Part shown: positions 4,044 through 22,231 of the stretch, one piece after another
Layout: every line of letters starts with the position of its first letter
Position numbering within the stretch: the stretch's first letter is position 1
Source of the DNA: a virus
Length of the DNA: 23,637 bases
IMG/VR virus record: IMGVR_UViG_3300039412_001255
Coordinates: 1-23,637 of that record
Reading direction: 5' to 3' (one strand)
Translations under genes and position numbers: made by a program
The notes under the pieces: model-generated
What the model was told of the DNA's origin: nothing
Database searches by the model: none
The model's input: only the letters and a program-made list of their open reading frames with translations

Positions 4044-4814
4044 ATGACAGCAAAGATTGTTCTAACTCCGTCAACTGGTGCGGGTAGCACCGTTGTCTCG
4101 ATAGCGGCAACAGGATTCACAACCGGAAGCCACAATATGTCCACCATCACACTTAATGGGTTGTCAATGGCCACGACTTGCACACCGAGTCTTCCAGCCG
4201 CTATGACGAGTGGCGCTGTAACGATAACCTTCATAATTCCGATGGCCACCTTTGGGTATGGCACTTTCACTGTTGTAGCAACGGATGACAATTCTGCGAC
4301 TGCTTCGGCTTCGTTCACCATAACTCCGGTAGCAACGATAGAGAAACTTGCGGGTGGCGGAATGTCGCAACTCGGCCCGGGTGGTTCAGGTTACTACGCC
4401 TCTGCTAATACTCCAACACTGACAGACCAAACAGCAGGAATCGAAGAGATTGTAGACAACTGGATTGGCAACATGACAGGAATATCTTCAGCCGCAACGA
4501 ACTCGTCTAATGCAACGGTAACAGTCTACGGACAGACGATGCCAGTGAACTACTTGGTGAATGCTTACATTCAATTCACCAGTGGCCCTGCTATCGGACT
4601 ACAACTCATCATTGCATCGAACACAGCATCGGTAATAACCTGCACAGGTGTCTTCGGTGTAGCACCGACAGCCGCAGGTGGAGACTCCTTCATAATCGTT
4701 GGAAACAACAGTACTGTCTACACGAACATCCCGCCCTTCGCAGTAGGCGAGATGAGAACAGGAACCATCGTCTACTCAAGTGACAATCAGCCACTCTGGG
4801 TCATCTGGTCGTAA
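4044..4814 (+). CDS. Beta-rich virion protein, shortened paralogue of the 503-aa adhesin
   Basis: The 256-aa protein begins with an IPT/TIG-like domain (IVLTPSTGAGSTVVSIAATG, ending TASASFTIT near residue 93) that aligns with the first 95 residues of the protein at 215-1726. The C-terminal module (about 150-225) has FTSGPAIGLQLIIASNTAS and AAGGDSFIIV, matching TSGNAAGQSRLVTANTAT and AAGGESFTV in that protein. The jelly-roll middle of the longer protein is missing. A Gly-rich linker (GGGMSQLGPGGSG) joins the two modules. It is presumably a virion surface or tail component; Lys and charged residues are scarce. The start is supported by the TATA box at 4011-4018. Confidence 0.7.
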   Translation: MTAKIVLTPSTGAGSTVVSIAATGFTTGSHNMSTITLNGLSMATTCTPSLPAAMTSGAVTITFIIPMATFGYGTFTVVATDDNSATASASFTITPVATIEKLAGGGMSQLGPGGSGYYASANTPTLTDQTAGIEEIVDNWIGNMTGISSAATNSSNATVTVYGQTMPVNYLVNAYIQFTSGPAIGLQLIIASNTASVITCTGVFGVAPTAAGGDSFIIVGNNSTVYTNIPPFAVGEMRTGTIVYSSDNQPLWVIWS

Positions 4815-4828
4815 GCCGAACTAGAGGC

Positions 4829-4836
4829 TTTAAATA
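4829..4836 (+). promoter_or_regulatory. TATA box for the SpeD-SET gene
   Basis: TTTAAATA preceded by GAGGC lies 26-27 nt before the ATG at 4859, the spacing seen for leaderless genes throughout the window. Confidence 0.7.
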
Positions 4837-4858
4837 GTTCCACGCCCTAGTCTATCTC

Positions 4859-5671
4859 ATGTCTGAGACTGAAGGCACTCATGAGTTTGTAGGGCATCAC
4901 GCCTTCGCAGACTTCTACGGATGTAAGGGAGACCTAGATGACAAGGAGAAGATGGAAGAGGCAATCTCATTAGCCATCGAAGCCGCAGACATGGATGAGG
5001 TCAAAACCGATGTGGTCAACTTCAAGCCACAAGGGACGACAGCCATCTCTATCATCACTCAATCTTCTGTCACTATTCACACATGGCCAGAGTCCGATGG
5101 TATGTTAGTGGATGCTATAACCTGTGGGCCTCACGACCCTCACAAAATTATCGAGACCCTGAAGGAGATTTATCAACCTGAGAAGGTCAACGAGTGGAGT
5201 GTAGAAAGGGGAGAGGCAAGTAATGAAGTGAAGAGGCTAGAAGAGGAAGACCGAGAGACAGACGTTGCTCCCATTCCTGTAAGATTTCCAGACGAGAAGA
5301 CTAAGGTGACGGGTGAGAGCGTTGAGGTCAAGCCTTGCGAACACGGTCACGGAGTCTTCGCTACTCAGGACTTTGAAGAGGGCGAAGCCATTCAGACCTT
5401 CAAGGCTCCCTTTGTAGAGGGAGACGAAGACCCCTCAAAAGACGGGACAGCCCTCAGAGTCGGTGAGTTGTGGTGGAACGGGCCTAAGTCTGGGACGGGA
5501 GAGGAGTGGGCCAACTTCCTTGACCACAGCGACACGCCCAACGCCAGTTTCTTCGACTTCGACATAGAGAAAGGAACGGGGAGTCTTATAGCGATTCAGC
5601 CTATCGGTAGAGGCGATGAAATCCTCATAGATTATGGGGAGTATGCCCCAGAGAACCTAGAAAGGGCTTAA
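4859..5671 (+). CDS. S-adenosylmethionine decarboxylase-like (SpeD) domain fused to a SET domain
   Basis: Residues 10-118 match bacterial/archaeal SpeD. They show HHAFADFYGC, a SIITQSSVTIHTWPE segment, and VDAITCG ending in VERGE. The pyruvoyl-forming Ser (S69), His (H74) and Cys (C89) of the family are all present, but the usual Glu-Ser-His around the self-cleavage site is Gln-Ser-Ser, so activity may differ. SpeD makes decarboxylated AdoMet for polyamine synthesis; some SpeD homologues have become arginine or ornithine decarboxylases. A charged linker (120-150) leads to residues 152-262, a compact SET domain with GHGVFATQDFEEGEAI, NFLDHSDTPN (219-228) and DEILIDYGEY (253-262), the folds that bind AdoMet and the target lysine. 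If SpeD self-processing occurs, the SET part would be on the alpha chain. The gene has its own promoter. Fusion of these domains is unusual. Confidence 0.85.
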   Translation: MSETEGTHEFVGHHAFADFYGCKGDLDDKEKMEEAISLAIEAADMDEVKTDVVNFKPQGTTAISIITQSSVTIHTWPESDGMLVDAITCGPHDPHKIIETLKEIYQPEKVNEWSVERGEASNEVKRLEEEDRETDVAPIPVRFPDEKTKVTGESVEVKPCEHGHGVFATQDFEEGEAIQTFKAPFVEGDEDPSKDGTALRVGELWWNGPKSGTGEEWANFLDHSDTPNASFFDFDIEKGTGSLIAIQPIGRGDEILIDYGEYAPENLERA

Positions 5672-11936: not shown

Positions 11937-11978
11937 ATGTCCTCTGAATCGGGCTGGAATAGGGTGGGGCTAGAATGA
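11937..11978 (+). CDS. Leader mini-ORF (13 aa) overlapping the giant repeat protein start
   Basis: The ATG lies 29 nt from the TATA box, and the 13-codon frame ends in TGA overlapping the ATG of the giant gene as ATGA (11975-11978). This is the standard geometry for translational coupling. GGGTGGGG near the end of the mini-ORF could be a ribosome-binding site for the main gene. The peptide resembles nothing known. It parallels the 25-codon mini-ORF before the scaffold gene and the 18-codon one before the exonuclease. Confidence 0.4.
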   Translation: MSSESGWNRVGLE

Positions 11979-14900
11979 CTATTGGACAAAAGAACAATAC
12001 TGGTGCTTCCCAAACTTCACTTACAGTCAAAATACTCAGTCTTCCAGCCATAACTACGGTAGTTGGAGATTGGATTGTAGTCTTCGTTTCTTCTCTCATT
12101 TCAGGAGCGTCTCCTGTCTCGTCTATAACCGATACAGCCTTGAATACTTACGTTTATGTTTCAACCATCACTGACTCTCAAGACGCTTCGGAAGGCGACC
12201 TTTGGATGTGCAAAGGCGCGGCCAATGCGAATGCAAGCAATGTCATCAAAGTCACAATGAGTTATAACGGTAGATTCCTTGCCAGCACATCATCTTACAC
12301 AGGAAAAATCAAACTTGGAAATCTTCATACATCCACAGACCCCGGCTCTACTCAGACTACGGCTTCTAACTCGGACACTACACAAGACCCCAATAATTGG
12401 GTTGTTGGCGGCTTTTGCGTTGACAGAGCATCCACACCCTCTGCGACAACGGGCAATTCGAGAGATGCTAGAAGCACGACTGGTGTTGGCTCTATTATGA
12501 TAGATAATACTAGAGCAACGGCGGGTTCTGCGACTATCGCTTGCTCATGGACAAACGGAGCATATTGGGGTGGTGTGATGGCTGAACTCAGAGGCGCACA
12601 AAACGTTAGTGGGAGTATAGGTTCAGGGATAGCAGAGACTAGCACAAAATTGACTCATCAAACTTCAACAGGAGCCATCGGCGGTGCGGCATCCAATACA
12701 TCTTTCACTATGTCTCATCAGACCTCAAAAGGGAGTGTGGGTCTCTCCGACACTACGGCCTACAACTTTACTCATCAAACTGTCTCTGGTTCCATTGGAG
12801 ACGCTATCTCTAGCGCAATGAGTATGACTCATCAGACTATGACGGGTTCCATCGGAAGCGCGGCTAATGGGGCAGTTGTAACCAACCAAAAGGTGTATGG
12901 TTCCATTGGAGCCAGCCTTGTTGGAGTGGCTGTCACTTCTGTAATCACATATGTATACGGGGCCATCGGAAGTGCTCTGTCTGGTCTCGCAAACATTACC
13001 AAACAGGTTGTGTCGGGTGCTTTAGGTGCAAGCGCGTCTGGCGCAACCACGATGACCCATCAAGAAGTCTCTGGGTCAATGGGAAGCAACACTCTTGGAG
13101 CACTTGCCATAACACATCAAGAAATAAGTGGAGCCTTAGGTGCGGTCATCTCAGGAGCCGTCAATACAGCACAGAAGGTTGTGGGAGCCATTGGAAGTGC
13201 CATCTCTGGCGCAGTTCAAATGACTCATCAGACTGTCTTTGGTTCCCTTGGAGATGCTATCTCTGGAACAATGGGTATGACTTATCAGACTGTCTCAGGT
13301 GCGGTTGGAAGTATGATAAAGTCGAAGGTTGTCACCAATGACTATGTGTATCTCGAACTGGACGCAGGGATGAGTGCCGCAGGAGAGGTCATAACGCACG
13401 ATGTAGTGACTGGTTCCATCGGAAAGAGCGCGTCTGGAAGCGTAGTCACCAACGATGAAGTGCCGGGTAGTATAGGGGATTCTGCTTCAGGAGCCGTCAC
13501 GATACCCTACCAGACCGCTTCTGGAACAGTAGGAGACAGTGCTTCAGGGGCAATCAACATCACTCATCAAACCGCAACAGGTTCGATAGGAGAGTCTGCA
13601 ACTGGAACAATGGCCACTCACGATACTGTGTTTGGATACATTGGATACACGTTATCTGGCGTGCTACAGATGCTCTCTCAAGCCCTGAGAGGGAATATGG
13701 GAGACAGTGTTTCTGGACAGGTTATAACAACCGATGTAGTGGCAGGAAGCATTGGCGAATCGGTTAGTGCGGCTACCATAATATCCAATCAGACTGCAAG
13801 CGGCAACGTGGGAGACGGTGCATCTGGGTCGGTCATCACCAATGATGAGGTCTTGGGTTCCATAGGAACGTCTGCAAGCGGCCTACCAGTCACTCACGAT
13901 ACTGTCTTTGGAGCCATTGGAAATGCCCTTTCTGGCGTGCTACAGATGCTTTCACAAGCCTTAAGCGGCAATGTTGGAAGCAACGTCACTGGAACGATTG
14001 TCACTTCTGATGTGGTCTCTGGGTCAGTAGGCGGGTCGGCTTCTGGGGCTATAAAGATAACTCAACAGATGGCACAGGGGTTGGTGGGAGCCAATGCAAG
14101 TGGAACGATTGCGCTCACTTTCCAGAATATAGTGGGTTCTATAGGAAGTGCCATCTCTGGAATAGCCGTTCCCTCTAGTATCACGCAGGTATTCGGATAC
14201 CTTGGGAGTGCCATATCTGGTCTGTTAGGGATTACTCACCAAGAGATAGAAGCAGGAATTGGTGAAAGCGGCTCTGGCCAAGTGATGACAGCAGATGTCG
14301 TGTCGGCTTCGATAGGCGCGGTTGGCTCTGGTGGATTCGAGATAACGCATCAGGAAACCGTTGGCGCGGTAGGAGATGATGCTTCCGGTGCTCTGGCTGT
14401 CACCCATCAGGAAGTCATTGGCTCATTGGGCAATTCTCTAGCAGGGACGTTTGCGATACTGTCCCAATTTATGTCCGGTCTATTAGGAACCGATACAACT
14501 GGAACGGTGGTCACTAACGACACTGTAAGTGGCTCGATAGGCAACACGGCCACTGGCGAGTTGGCTGTCACTCATCAAGTGGTCTCCGGCTCTGTCGGTG
14601 GCTCTCTAGTTGGGGCATTTGAAGTGCTGTCCCAAGCCGTGTCTGGATTCTTGGGAGCCGATACCATTGGCCAAGTTGTGACCAACGACTTTGTGAACGG
14701 AACCATCGGAAGCAACATCCTTGGTGTAGTGTTTACTGCACGCGAAGTCTTTGGATACATCGGAAGTGCTATCTTTGGGTCAGGGATAACCAATGATGTA
14801 GTGGAAGGAGCCATCGGTGGAGAGGCCAGTGGAGCAATCGAGATAACCTCTCAGACCGCATCTGGGTCAATCGGAAGTGACCTCACAGGTCTAGCGAATG

Positions 14901-16336
14901 TGATATACCAAGCCGTAAGCGGCCTCTTAGGTAACTCTGCTTCAGGAACAGTGGTCACTGGCGATGTAGTGAGTGGTGCTCTGGGCAATGACGTTTCAGG
15001 AGTGACTGATGTAACGCACCAAGAACTTAGCGGAAGCACCGGAGCCAGTGGCTCTGGACAGGGTGTGACTCATGATGTAATCGGAGTCAATATCGGTGCA
15101 AAAGGGGCTGGCGCGGTTGTGACCGGGGATGTAGTCTTAGGAGAGGTCGGTATCTCAGAAACAGGAGTGTCTATCACTAATCAGGTAGTGGGCGGAACTA
15201 TAGGCGAGTCTACAACCGAGAAGGTGGTCACACATGATGTAGTCTTTGGAACCATCGGCGCAGGGATACAGACTGGACTCTATCCCAAGTTCATAAACAT
15301 CGCCATAACCGCGACTGTCATAGTCCACGACTTGGTGTATGGAGCGATTGGTCTGTCTGCCTCTGGGTCTGGCTCGACACGACAGGTGGTCTCTGGAAAG
15401 GTTGGAACGAGTGGAACGGGCGCGACTCTTGTGACTCACCAAGAGGCAAGCGGCCAAGTTGGAACCAGTGCAATTGGTGTAATCCATACCTTGAGCCAAC
15501 TTGTAAACGGAGCGATTGGTGGCTCAATTCTAGGCAAGGTCATAACGAAGCAGAGGGTCAAGGGAACTATGGGTGTGTCTGAAACTGGCCAGACCTCTGT
15601 GACTTCCCAAGTTGTGACTGGCTCTGTTGGAGCCAAGGCAACCGCAGTCGAGATACTGCACGACCTTGTAAGCGGGACAATCGGCACTTCGATTCTGGGC
15701 AAGGGCATCACACGCCAAAAGGTCTCAGGGACTATGGGGTTGAATGAGACGAGCACGATGACCATTCCTCACCAAGAGGTCTCCGGCCAAGTTGGGGCTT
15801 CTGTGAAGGCGAAGGAGACGACCTTCGACCTGATAAGCGGGGCCATCGGTGCGGCCATCTCTGAAATCGTGAATACAGGACAGAGGGTAAAGGGAAGCAT
15901 AGGACTCTCTTCTAGCGAGACAACCACCATACCTCATCAGACTGCTCAAGGCTCTATCGGAAGCAGGGTGTTTGGTGTGCTTGATGTGACTCACCAGATA
16001 GTAGGCGGGGCAGTTGGAGCCAGAATAAGCGGAACGCCTAGAACCCATCAGAAGGTCAAGGGAAGCATAAGTGGTGGGACAACTGGCCAGACTGCGGTTA
16101 CGCACCAAGAGGTCAAGGGAGAAATAGGCACTGAGGTCACTGGTAGCCTTGTTACGACTCTTGTTCAGATATTCGGATACATGGGCAGTGGGATTGTTGG
16201 CCAGATGAGGTTTGAATGGAAGGAGTTCCTCAAACTCAAGATACTCTCTGAGGTCAAGAACACTACCCTACAGACCTTCAAGAAGGGCATGAGATTGAGG
16301 GTGAAGCCGGAAGAGAATGAGGACGAAAACCCGTAA
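11975..16336 (+). CDS. Giant repeat-built fibre/adhesin-like virion protein (1453 aa)
   Basis: Residues 1-207 form a jelly-roll-like domain with VGDWIVVFVSS and VSSITDT, matching the middle domain of the 503-aa protein at 215. From about residue 211 to 1410 the protein is a tandem array of about 60 units of roughly 20 residues, of the form G-S-I-G-x-S-x-S-G-x-V-x-(T/I)-T-(H/N)-(Q/D)-x-V-x. Typical units end in THQTVSGSIG or TNDEVSGSIG. Regular Gly and alternating hydrophobic residues suggest a beta-solenoid or repetitive fibre. The position with His-Gln, His-Asp or Asn-Asp could line up along one face. The last 45 residues lose the repeat and become charged (FEWKEFLKLK ... KPEENEDENP), probably an attachment or assembly tail. 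There is no signal peptide or transmembrane segment. A long tail fibre or surface spike is likely. Confidence 0.8.
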   Translation: MTIGQKNNTGASQTSLTVKILSLPAITTVVGDWIVVFVSSLISGASPVSSITDTALNTYVYVSTITDSQDASEGDLWMCKGAANANASNVIKVTMSYNGRFLASTSSYTGKIKLGNLHTSTDPGSTQTTASNSDTTQDPNNWVVGGFCVDRASTPSATTGNSRDARSTTGVGSIMIDNTRATAGSATIACSWTNGAYWGGVMAELRGAQNVSGSIGSGIAETSTKLTHQTSTGAIGGAASNTSFTMSHQTSKGSVGLSDTTAYNFTHQTVSGSIGDAISSAMSMTHQTMTGSIGSAANGAVVTNQKVYGSIGASLVGVAVTSVITYVYGAIGSALSGLANITKQVVSGALGASASGATTMTHQEVSGSMGSNTLGALAITHQEISGALGAVISGAVNTAQKVVGAIGSAISGAVQMTHQTVFGSLGDAISGTMGMTYQTVSGAVGSMIKSKVVTNDYVYLELDAGMSAAGEVITHDVVTGSIGKSASGSVVTNDEVPGSIGDSASGAVTIPYQTASGTVGDSASGAINITHQTATGSIGESATGTMATHDTVFGYIGYTLSGVLQMLSQALRGNMGDSVSGQVITTDVVAGSIGESVSAATIISNQTASGNVGDGASGSVITNDEVLGSIGTSASGLPVTHDTVFGAIGNALSGVLQMLSQALSGNVGSNVTGTIVTSDVVSGSVGGSASGAIKITQQMAQGLVGANASGTIALTFQNIVGSIGSAISGIAVPSSITQVFGYLGSAISGLLGITHQEIEAGIGESGSGQVMTADVVSASIGAVGSGGFEITHQETVGAVGDDASGALAVTHQEVIGSLGNSLAGTFAILSQFMSGLLGTDTTGTVVTNDTVSGSIGNTATGELAVTHQVVSGSVGGSLVGAFEVLSQAVSGFLGADTIGQVVTNDFVNGTIGSNILGVVFTAREVFGYIGSAIFGSGITNDVVEGAIGGEASGAIEITSQTASGSIGSDLTGLANVIYQAVSGLLGNSASGTVVTGDVVSGALGNDVSGVTDVTHQELSGSTGASGSGQGVTHDVIGVNIGAKGAGAVVTGDVVLGEVGISETGVSITNQVVGGTIGESTTEKVVTHDVVFGTIGAGIQTGLYPKFINIAITATVIVHDLVYGAIGLSASGSGSTRQVVSGKVGTSGTGATLVTHQEASGQVGTSAIGVIHTLSQLVNGAIGGSILGKVITKQRVKGTMGVSETGQTSVTSQVVTGSVGAKATAVEILHDLVSGTIGTSILGKGITRQKVSGTMGLNETSTMTIPHQEVSGQVGASVKAKETTFDLISGAIGAAISEIVNTGQRVKGSIGLSSSETTTIPHQTAQGSIGSRVFGVLDVTHQIVGGAVGARISGTPRTHQKVKGSISGGTTGQTAVTHQEVKGEIGTEVTGSLVTTLVQIFGYMGSGIVGQMRFEWKEFLKLKILSEVKNTTLQTFKKGMRLRVKPEENEDENP
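12605..16206 (+). repeat. About 60 degenerate 60-bp coding repeats
   Basis: The DNA repeats with a 60-bp period in frame, each unit encoding the 20-residue GSIG...(T)HQ motif. Copies are diverged at the nucleotide level, with some near-identical blocks such as 13621-13700 versus 13890-13970, where the same stretch of about 20 codons (THDTVFG ... LSGVLQMLSQAL) recurs. That suggests block duplication on top of older single-unit expansion. Confidence 0.8.
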
Positions 16337-18555: not shown

Positions 18556-18596
18556 GATTCGTCAACCGACTCCCCATTATGGTAGGGTAGTGAATC

Positions 18597-18604
18597 TTTA
18601 AATA
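18597..18604 (+). promoter_or_regulatory. Plus-strand TATA box without an obvious downstream ORF
   Basis: GAATC-TTTAAATA predicts a start near 18627, but no start codon with a useful frame lies there. The transcript would begin inside the G-rich hairpin at 18613-18648 and may be a leader or a non-coding RNA. Confidence 0.5.
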
Positions 18605-18612
18605 ACCACCCG

Positions 18613-18648
18613 ACTGTTACAGGGGGGTAGGGGGGTCGTCCTGACAGT
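18613..18648 (+). other. Hairpin with G-rich loop
   Basis: ACTGT-TA-CAGG (18613-18623) pairs with CCTG-ACAGT (18640-18648), leaving a loop with two runs of five to six G. Two direct copies of AGACAAT (18650-18656, 18658-18664) follow immediately. Confidence 0.5.
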
Positions 18649-18670
18649 TAGACAATCAGACAATGGTTAT

Positions 18671-18725
18671 AAAAACCCAAACACACCCCACAAACACAAC
18701 CACAAACACAACCACAAACCCACAA
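18671..18725. repeat. 55-nt A/C-only tract with 12-bp tandem repeats
   Basis: The plus strand contains only A and C over 55 bases, so the minus strand contains only T and G. Inside it CACAAACACAAC occurs twice in tandem (18689-18700, 18701-18712), followed by a partial third copy to 18719. No start codon or frame of note is found here. The 18545-18772 gap as a whole has no gene. Confidence 0.85.
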
Positions 18726-18742
18726 TCCTAACCCTGTGAACA

Positions 18743-18750
18743 TTTAAATA
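18743..18750 (+). promoter_or_regulatory. TATA box for the 76-aa acidic protein gene
   Basis: TTTAAATA is centred 26-27 nt before the ATG at 18773. Confidence 0.7.
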
Positions 18751-18772
18751 GGCTCAGAGGAAGGGGTTTGGT

Positions 18773-20068: not shown

Positions 20069-21382
20069 ATGACAAGACTATCTGCGAATGTAATTAAGCA
20101 ACTGCAAGGCATCCATAACGAGTATGTTAACGTCAATGGATTCAGTGCAGATGTGCAAGACGAACTGAGAGTTGGAAAGAAGACTGGCAACAAGTGTGCT
20201 AGAGTCTATGTAACTCAGAAGGTTCCAGTCAATGCTCTTGCTGTGAACGATGTGATTCCTAACTCCATACTTGATGAAGATGGGGTGAAGGTTCTTATTG
20301 ATGTGGTGGAGATTGGAGTCATAAAAGCATTTCCAGACTTTAACGGTTTCCTACATAAACAACACCCGGCTTCAGTTTCGGCTCCGGCTTCTGTTTACAC
20401 CAATCCAGATGTTGCAGTGAGACCTATGATTGGCGGCATTTCAGTGGGTCACTACAAAATCACGGCTGGAACGATAAATTACTTCTACACGGACAATGTT
20501 ACTGGCAAGATAGGAATGCTTAGTAACAACCACGTTCTTGCAAACGAGAACGATGCGACTGCCGGAGACCCCATCCTTCAACCCGGCCCATACGATGGTG
20601 GCACAATACTCAGTGATGAAGTGGGTAAACTGACACGCTTTGTGCCTATTGTGTATGACGCGGCTACTGGTGTCTCATCGGGACAAGCGGGAACCTCTGC
20701 TCCGAATACACAGGGTAACAACACTGTAGACTGCGCTTTCGCTATTCTGAATGACCAGACGAACTATCAATTAGTGGAAGACGGTCTCTTCTCTCCTGTA
20801 GGAAACTCAGAGGCAGTAGTTGGAGACACCGTTACCAAATCAGGGCGCACCACTGGTGTCACCACTGGAAAAGTCATAGACATTGCTGGAACCGTAGACG
20901 TAGGTTACAGTGGAAGCAATACCGCAACCTTTGTAGACCAAGTGATTGTGCAGGACGAAGGCTCAAGTTTCAGCCAAGGCGGAGACAGTGGTTCTCTCAT
21001 TATGAGGTCAAGCGACAAGATGGCTGTTGCCATACTCTTTGCGGGTGGCGGAACTACCACAATAGGCAACCACATTCTTGCTGTTCTTGCCGCGCTGAAC
21101 ATCTCTTCGATTGGAACTACACCTACTCCGACACCAACTCCAACCCCAACTCCTACTCCAACCCCTACTCCAACTCCGACACCAACACCAACTCCGACCA
21201 GTCCATGTTTGGCCAAGATTCAGAAAGGAGTGGCCGAACTTGAAGCAGGGTCGGTTCTTCATGGTATAGAAGACATACTTTCTGGTCTAACGTGCTATGT
21301 TGACAACGACCTCAAAGGCGAGTCGAAAGCAATCAAACGAAAGATAAGGGCTGATATTGAGCGAGTTGAGAGACGACTCTAA
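20069..21382 (+). CDS. Trypsin-like (S1-fold) serine protease with Thr-Pro linker
   Basis: The 437-aa protein has a chymotrypsin-fold domain with an intact triad: H155 in LSNNHVLAN, D221 in NTVDCAFAIL, and S307 in GGDSGSL. KSGRTTGVTTGKV (257-269), a typical strand pair, precedes the Ser motif. Residues 1-115 form a separate N-terminal alpha/beta part with ARVYVTQKVPVNAL. A linker of about 13 Thr-Pro pairs (351-377) leads to a 60-residue Cys-containing helical tail (SPCLAKIQKG ... IERVERRL). There is no signal peptide or transmembrane segment. The rigid linker suggests a protease head held away from a virion or cell anchor, so digestion of a host surface protein is plausible. Housekeeping functions in virion maturation seem less likely because a prohead protease is present. 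Confidence 0.85.
   Translation: MTRLSANVIKQLQGIHNEYVNVNGFSADVQDELRVGKKTGNKCARVYVTQKVPVNALAVNDVIPNSILDEDGVKVLIDVVEIGVIKAFPDFNGFLHKQHPASVSAPASVYTNPDVAVRPMIGGISVGHYKITAGTINYFYTDNVTGKIGMLSNNHVLANENDATAGDPILQPGPYDGGTILSDEVGKLTRFVPIVYDAATGVSSGQAGTSAPNTQGNNTVDCAFAILNDQTNYQLVEDGLFSPVGNSEAVVGDTVTKSGRTTGVTTGKVIDIAGTVDVGYSGSNTATFVDQVIVQDEGSSFSQGGDSGSLIMRSSDKMAVAILFAGGGTTTIGNHILAVLAALNISSIGTTPTPTPTPTPTPTPTPTPTPTPTPTPTSPCLAKIQKGVAELEAGSVLHGIEDILSGLTCYVDNDLKGESKAIKRKIRADIERVERRL
21120..21198 (+). repeat. Thr-Pro codon repeats (linker)
   Basis: Repeating 6-bp units of the type AC(T/A/C)CC(A/T/C/G) encode the Thr-Pro linker of the protease. Silent variation between units argues for selection on the protein sequence. 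Confidence 0.85.
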
Positions 21383-21397
21383 GTATTGGGCAGAATC

Positions 21398-21406
21398 CTT
21401 ATTAAT
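21398..21406 (+). promoter_or_regulatory. TATA box for the structured RNA
   Basis: CTTATTAAT is centred 26 nt before 21428, where the 5' arm of a 12-bp RNA stem begins. CAGAATCCTTAT (21391-21402) is repeated exactly at 21553-21564 in the promoter of the next gene, so both look like bona fide core promoters. Confidence 0.6.
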
Positions 21407-21427
21407 CCTACCTACATAGGATGTGCC

Positions 21428-21553
21428 GGGATTGCAGGGGCTTAGTTAGCGAGACCCCGCACCGTTACGGCCAAGGCCGTAAAGACTCAGTTGATAAGGG
21501 GCCGACGCTTCCCAAACGGGCGTAACAGGGAGCGTGCGAACCCTGACAATCCC
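21428..21553 (+). ncRNA. Probable structured non-coding RNA (about 126 nt)
   Basis: GGGATTGCAGGG at the 5' end (21428-21439) pairs with CCCTG-A-CAATCCC at the 3' end (21541-21553), a 12-bp stem with one bulged A. Inside are a hairpin TTACGGC/GCCGTAA with loop CAAG (21465-21482) and a hairpin ACG...CCC/GGGCGT with loop AAAC (21505-21523). CAGGG (21526-21530) could compete with the 5' AGGG for CCCTG, giving two alternative folds. It has no ORF, is more G+C-rich than its flanks, and begins exactly 26 nt after a TATA box. It is not a canonical tRNA: the T-arm-like hairpin has a 10-nt loop and an extra A before the 3' acceptor-like strand. The class is unknown; possibilities are a viral small RNA, a tRNA-like RNA or a ribozyme. 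Confidence 0.6.
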
Positions 21554-21560
21554 AGAATCC

Positions 21561-21567
21561 TTATAAA
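21561..21567 (+). promoter_or_regulatory. TATA box for the nucleotidyltransferase-like gene
   Basis: TTATAAA is centred 26 nt before the ATG at 21590, which marks the true start. The longer frame from 21491 runs through the RNA gene and is not credible. Confidence 0.7.
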
Positions 21568-21589: not shown

Positions 21590-22231
21590 ATGAGTAGTGA
21601 GCGCGTTCTAGTTCTGATGGCTGGCGGATACACGCCAGACCAAATCCAGAAGCACCTTCTGGTGGATAGCAATGGCAACCGCCTCTTTGAGAGGACGATT
21701 AATGCTGTTCCGGCAGATACGGTCTGGATAGTCCACAACCGAATCAATCAGGGTTGGTGGAATGCGTGGTATAACAACAATGTCCACAACACGTTCAGCG
21801 ATAAGACCATCACGCTCTTTCTGGACACCAAGGGAAGCAAGGGACAGTCGAACAACCCCTCTCTCTGGATGACTAGCGGCATCCCGGCTATGACCGTCAA
21901 CACCAAGTTCAAAGAGGTCGTCTTCGGCGCGATTGACTCCTACTTCGACAACTACAACTTCATGGACGAATTCATCTCCAAGGAGCACGCCTATGTCATA
22001 GCAGACACCTACATCGGGAAGGACATCTACACCGACCTGATGAAGACCACCACTAAGGAACTTCTGAAGAACGGACAGTTGCGGTATGGGAGCATGAGCC
22101 AAGTTCTCTTCCAGATGATTCAGAAAGGAACTGTCTTCGACATCATCAAAGTGAAGGGCAAGTTCTTCGATTGTGGAACTCCTGACGGTCTGGAAGCGGC
22201 AAAGGGGTATGTGACTGTTGGAACATTATAA
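21590..22231 (+). CDS. Degenerate NTP-transferase-fold (sugar nucleotidyltransferase-like) protein
   Basis: The 213-aa product starts like a sugar-1-phosphate nucleotidyltransferase: VLVLMAGGY (6-14), then QKHLLVDSNGNRLFERTI (20-37), matching 'K-x-x-L-x-v-x-G-x-P-l-l-x-x-x-i'. It ends with FFDCGTPDGLEAAKGYV (192-208), the usual 'D-x-G-T-P-x-x-l-x-x-A' motif. The normal G-x-G-T-R loop after A-G-G is missing and much of the sugar-binding centre is shortened, so it may be a reduced or altered enzyme. The downstream glycosyltransferase-like gene suggests a role in glycan synthesis for virion or host surface modification. Confidence 0.65.
   Translation: MSSERVLVLMAGGYTPDQIQKHLLVDSNGNRLFERTINAVPADTVWIVHNRINQGWWNAWYNNNVHNTFSDKTITLFLDTKGSKGQSNNPSLWMTSGIPAMTVNTKFKEVVFGAIDSYFDNYNFMDEFISKEHAYVIADTYIGKDIYTDLMKTTTKELLKNGQLRYGSMSQVLFQMIQKGTVFDIIKVKGKFFDCGTPDGLEAAKGYVTVGTL

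Follow-up and report, generated by a model that had tools for sequence, protein, structure and literature searches.

This locus raises the question of whether a short structured stretch between two protein genes of a virus is an RNA gene in its own right, and what such an RNA would do for the virus. The window, by which we mean the whole stretch of 23,637 nucleotides that was analysed, is a 23.6-kb record with an HK97-type capsid gene. The structured element occupies positions 21428-21553 on the plus strand (126 nt), between the end of a protease gene at 21382 and the ATG of the next gene at 21590. Its parts and immediate surroundings are as follows; the three forms mentioned are the window form and two homologous forms described below.

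21391..21405, plus strand: core promoter of the RNA gene, BRE-like GAATC followed by TATA-like CCTTATTAA; the 3' end of the TATA 9-mer lies 22 nt from 21428
21428..21553, plus strand: predicted structured noncoding RNA of 126 nt, recognised by its terminal helix, its homologues and the lack of a common reading frame; predicted +1 at 21428
21428..21439, plus strand: 5' strand of the closing stem P1, GGGATTGCAGGG, partner of 21541-21553
21440..21464, plus strand: invariant core GCTTAGTTAGCGAGACCCCGCACCG, the same in all three forms while the adjoining hairpins diverge
21465..21482, plus strand: variable hairpin TTACGGC-CAAG-GCCGTAA, its sequence replaced in form C with a hairpin still possible
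21505..21535, plus strand: second hairpin, ACGCTTCC / GGGAGCGT, able to pair in each of the three forms, where G-C/G-U changes occur
21534..21542, plus strand: conserved 3' core GTGCGAACC, the same in all three forms
21541..21553, plus strand: 3' strand of P1, CCCTG-A-CAATCCC (CCCTGACAATCCC), with a bulged A at 21546
21553..21567, plus strand: separate core promoter of the next gene, CAGAATCCTTATAAA, whose TATA 9-mer ends 22 nt before the ATG at 21590
21590..22231, plus strand: downstream protein gene of 213 aa, nucleotidyltransferase-like (NTase) by its N-terminal motif and outside the RNA gene; the protein had no Pfam match

The setting of the element appears to be archaeal. Boxes resembling CTTWAAATA, of archaeal promoter type, precede many genes of the window, and the commonest distance from the 3' end of the TATA-like box to the start codon of its protein genes is 22 nt, as expected of leaderless archaeal mRNAs. 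The virus belongs to a group of tailed viruses that, judging from these promoters and from a relative of the protease in an Aeropyrum virus, appears to infect archaea. Neither a provirus search with the capsid profile nor a search with an exact 23-mer of the RNA core gave a match in 84,980 prokaryote species. Elsewhere, the window encodes one viral protein with both an S-adenosylmethionine decarboxylase (PF02675) and a SET (PF00856) domain (4859-5671), a 1453-aa protein with many GSIG/GAIG-type repeats that is perhaps a structural or fibre protein (11975-16336), and a homing-type endonuclease (PHROG HNH endonuclease) together with a second endonuclease-like gene (2300-2800 and 1786-2166). In G019, a 106.9-kb relative, both endonuclease genes have relatives close to the NTase gene or to the RNA. 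The protease gene (20069-21382) has a C-terminal tail, a threonine-proline repeat plus about 60 residues, that is missing from L003 and L005; at its place, G019, G021 and L006 have the end of a papain-like protease reading frame instead.

Homologues, which the first-pass annotation had proposed to collect, were found in two forms (B and C) besides that of the window (W), giving three independent RNA sequences in all (n=3). The downstream gene, used as a query, led to five related contigs. In one of these (L002/G005, 18 kb), the RNA region is identical to that of the window. Form B (L003 4605-4737, 133 nt) stands at the same site and is 90% identical to the window; it occurs in two contigs, L003/G001 and L004/G002, which are near identical to each other at the RNA region. 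Form C, found via capsid relatives, has 113 nt and lies on the minus strand of G019 (97459-97347, corresponding to L109 1537-1425, minus), and the length of the RNA ranges from 113 to 133 nt across the forms. In G019 the gene behind the RNA is homologous to window gene 18773, so that the RNA stands about 2.7 kb away from where its window position would lead one to expect it; the NTase site of that genome shows one promoter only and lacks the RNA. The downstream gene is a different one in W and B than in C, and at both genome sites it keeps its own promoter 3' of the RNA.

Other relatives have the genes and lack the RNA. In L005/G003 (105 kb) the flanking genes are the same, with one promoter and no RNA between them, and the RNA is also absent at the site in L006/G004, where the protein is 50% identical. 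A covariance model built from the three forms found no copy in G003 (105 kb), G004 (91 kb), G021 (105.7 kb) or other fragments, these being records classed as linear and maybe incomplete. All three RNA-less genomes are large and syntenic with the window, and the downstream gene is present in each of them, as it is in G019 without RNA at this site. The window place that corresponds to the RNA site of G019, before gene 18773, shows a second layout of promoter, noncoding stretch and promoter (18592-18770): GAATCTTTAAATA, about 120 nt of A/C-rich sequence with the ends GTTACAGGG...CCCTGTGAAC, and then the gene's own promoter. The window sequence there has no match to the RNA model. At the same site, L156 (G021; ~4180-4520) and L006 (~4700-5050) have a small leaderless ORF of 24-25 codons on the opposite strand, which starts with MARLPYMRA and is preceded by a GAATCCTTAWTAA promoter.

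Conservation within the RNA is uneven. Between the window and G019, the first ~38-39 nt of the RNA are 97% identical, while the other alignable stretches reach 64-78%, and this 5' part is the most identical stretch of the whole 20-kb comparison between the two. Beside the ~38-nt 5' part, GACGCT and the conserved 3' core are also invariant. The invariant core at 21440..21464 is likely a functional site.

The promoters on the two sides of the RNA had attracted attention for sharing an exact 12-bp repeat. The repeat is there: the window contains CAGAATCCTTAT exactly two times, at 21391 and 21553. It is itself a core promoter, BRE-like GAATC plus a TATA-like box, and the special meaning once attached to it falls away, since this is the usual promoter core and relatives carry differing versions of it; in forms B and C the RNA promoter and the next-gene promoter are unlike each other. 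Read from the sequence, the exact repeat reflects a chance agreement between two good core promoters. The element had been said to start 26 nt after a TATA box; measured from the end of the TATA-like 9-mer to the first G of the stem, the distance is 22 nt, near that figure, and in W, B and C alike exactly 22 nt separate the end of the TATA-like box from the first G of GGGATTG. The earlier claim of a separate transcription unit thus gains support from the homologues, the two genome sites, the exact 22-nt promoter spacing and the next-gene promoter behind the RNA. We saw no T-run terminator 3' of the RNA in W, B or C by direct reading, and the transcript might therefore read through into the next gene. 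None of the small reading frames through the RNA survives the indels between the forms.

The closing stem is the firmest part of the predicted fold. In the window form, P1 comprises 12 bp with A21546 bulged and joins both ends of the element, which confirms, by reading and by shuffle statistics, the 126-nt element with a 12-bp closing stem and one bulged A described at first pass. A terminal helix this long arose in 4 of 20,000 dinucleotide shuffles for the window form, in 4 of 20,000 for B and in 13 of 20,000 for C. Against shuffles, every form had an MFE z-score of about -2.7 to -3.0, and 21426-21556 one of -3.29. Only the closing stem has a high predicted probability in all three forms. In form C it has 11 bp: one G-C has become G-U, the 5' strand has lost one base and the 3' strand two, one of them the bulged A. 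The covariation that three independent sequences offer is thin, too little for meaningful statistics: it consists of this G-C to G-U pair and the matched length change of P1, a few one-sided changes and one replaced hairpin.

Inside P1 the fold is ambiguous, and the predictions disagree among the three forms. Two clear internal hairpins had been claimed. The one at 21465-21482 is clear, with mean pair probabilities of 0.5 to 0.96; its counterpart in form C is GGGG-TAAA-CCCC, whose foldability alone is within chance. The one at 21505..21535 is less certain: its predicted probability is low in forms B and C, and the pairings ACGC/GCGT and CGCAC/GTGCG compete with it. For ACGCTYCC the possible partners are GGRAGYGT and, over a shorter length, GCGT; for CGCAC, the possible partner is GTGCG. 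The alternative 3' fold suggested earlier exists in the window sequence but is absent in the distant form C. The proposed switch, in which AGGG and CAGGG compete for CCCTG, does not hold across the family, since the inner CAGGG is TCGAG in form C while the outer CAGG/CCTG is kept.

Searches against known families did not place the RNA. Rfam 15 at the gathering threshold returned no family for the window and the three forms, and at relaxed thresholds W, B and C gave only matches far below threshold, none of them credible. ARAGORN found 0 tRNA/tmRNA genes in the window and relatives, and blast against 50,697 phage records gave no match to the RNA. W has CTGA near its 3' end and no 5' C box (RUGAUGA), and form C is without CTGA there; the ACA of W and B sits inside the closing stem and is absent in form C. 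The element thus resembles neither box C/D nor H/ACA RNAs, and the original impression that it fits no tRNA or box C/D pattern stands. The longest antisense match of the RNA within the window's own sequence was 11 nt. Pattern scans of the viral collection hit 66 stretches with the 5'-end 15-mer, 4 with the invariant 17-mer, 16 with the core 15-mer and 26 with a gapped 3' pattern. Matches were checked by blastn and reading for the first scan and by the covariance model for the last two, and beyond the known contigs the scans gave chance matches only. One match in G007 (E 0.04) spans 25 nt in dissimilar surroundings and was taken as chance. On sequence grounds, then, the element is real and discrete, a previously uncatalogued gene family of a small virus group, and it belongs to a kind already known, the viral noncoding RNAs.

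What would this RNA do? Its accessory distribution, its own promoter and its two sites suggest a trans-acting, dispensable RNA, which argues against both a leader function and an essential packaging RNA. We consider it fairly probable that this is a free-standing noncoding RNA gene, trans-acting and accessory in the manner of a moron, whose product serves as a decoy or regulator by binding a protein or an RNA of the host. In broader terms, it is probably an accessory RNA that targets either the host or the virus itself. It is the accessory distribution that suggests a host-directed role. Host RNA polymerase would transcribe a short RNA from the gene's own promoter, with the first G of the closing stem as the predicted start. 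The end-to-end stem may fix and protect the ends of the RNA and leave the invariant core accessible to a partner. This partner, a protein or an RNA of the host, would be offered the core, GCUUAGUUAGCGAGACCCCGCACCG, along with GACGCU and GUGCGAACC, and the RNA would act in trans, as decoy or regulator, during infection. Processing may be required to form its 3' end, or part of the transcripts may extend into the next gene. A bolder proposal, which we advance only tentatively, is that tailed viruses of archaea have a new family of RNAs, movable and acting in trans, that counter host defence, or seize a host RNA-binding machine, via the invariant ~38-nt 5' part, as an archaeal counterpart of viral decoy RNAs.

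Four other explanations have to be weighed against a host-directed accessory RNA. Best placed among them, though still unlikely, is an RNA that serves packaging or replication in the manner of phi29 pRNA or of the RNA proposed for the Acidianus bottle-shaped virus. The capsid is of HK97 type, the RNA is compact with paired ends, and there is a precedent in an archaeal virus (PMC5882107). However, an essential part should be present, and the RNA is absent from the syntenic G004 and G021 and from G003, whose capsid protein is 99% identical to that of the window. The RNA-less genomes may hold a diverged replacement or miss terminal sequence. Because G003 lacks the RNA, we regard an essential packaging role as less likely than that of a decoy or regulator directed at the host. 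A cis-acting leader of the downstream gene, either a riboswitch or an attenuator, seems quite unlikely. The RNA does lie directly 5' of a gene with no terminator-like T-run between them, and alternative folds are possible; but a promoter separates the RNA from the downstream start codon at both sites, the gene behind it changes from W and B to C, and the same genes occur without the RNA in relatives. We give as little credence to a small mobile DNA element (MITE-like) with inverted ends that only resemble an RNA stem. The 12-bp inverted ends, the presence or absence at a syntenic site and the two different sites would suit such an element. Against it, there is a single copy per genome and no target-site duplication at the element ends, the block missing in G003 takes in one of the two promoters, the 22-nt spacing to the TATA box is constant in three contexts, and an invariant interior core with variable hairpins suits an RNA better than the interior of a transposon. 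Least probable of all is a mimic of a specific host RNA, a tRNA-like minihelix or rRNA fragment titrating a host enzyme: 7 bp, a break and 5 bp do stack into 12 bp much as the acceptor and T stems do, and the core's AGCGAGACCCC is presumably reminiscent of a stretch conserved in archaeal 16S rRNA, but neither ARAGORN nor Rfam detects any resemblance to tRNA or rRNA, the T-arm-like pairing is lost in the distant form C, and a match of 11 nt to rRNA is not rare by chance.

Descriptions of noncoding RNAs from archaeal viruses are few. The present one offers defined ends, a promoter from which the start can be predicted to single-base precision, a core that does not vary, and naturally occurring pairs of viruses with and without it, which would make its role directly testable once a host or a metatranscriptome is available. 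Among known systems, phage morons are extra genes with their own promoter that occur in some relatives. The RNA gene likewise has its own promoter (by sequence), comes and goes at the same site and varies in position; its product, however, is RNA and not protein, and a terminator of its own was not seen. Tailed phages also encode small RNAs that are not protein leaders, for example the stable RNAs of phage T4 and the c4-type RNAs of P1. The present RNA likewise does not look like a protein leader, with different downstream genes and a promoter between in each case; its differences are that it has no Rfam relation and has an archaeal-type promoter. In the pRNA of phi29, a lone viral RNA that is short and structured, the ends are paired. 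Ours is also short and structured with paired ends, yet it has no Rfam match, and relatives whose capsid protein is nearly the same lack it. In the Acidianus bottle-shaped virus (Ampullaviridae), a putative noncoding RNA with a hypothesised packaging role has been reported (PMC5882107). As a noncoding RNA gene proposed in an archaeal DNA virus, it is the nearest precedent as regards kind; that RNA comes from an unrelated virus group and carries a packaging hypothesis, whereas the present RNA is accessory and occupies two sites.
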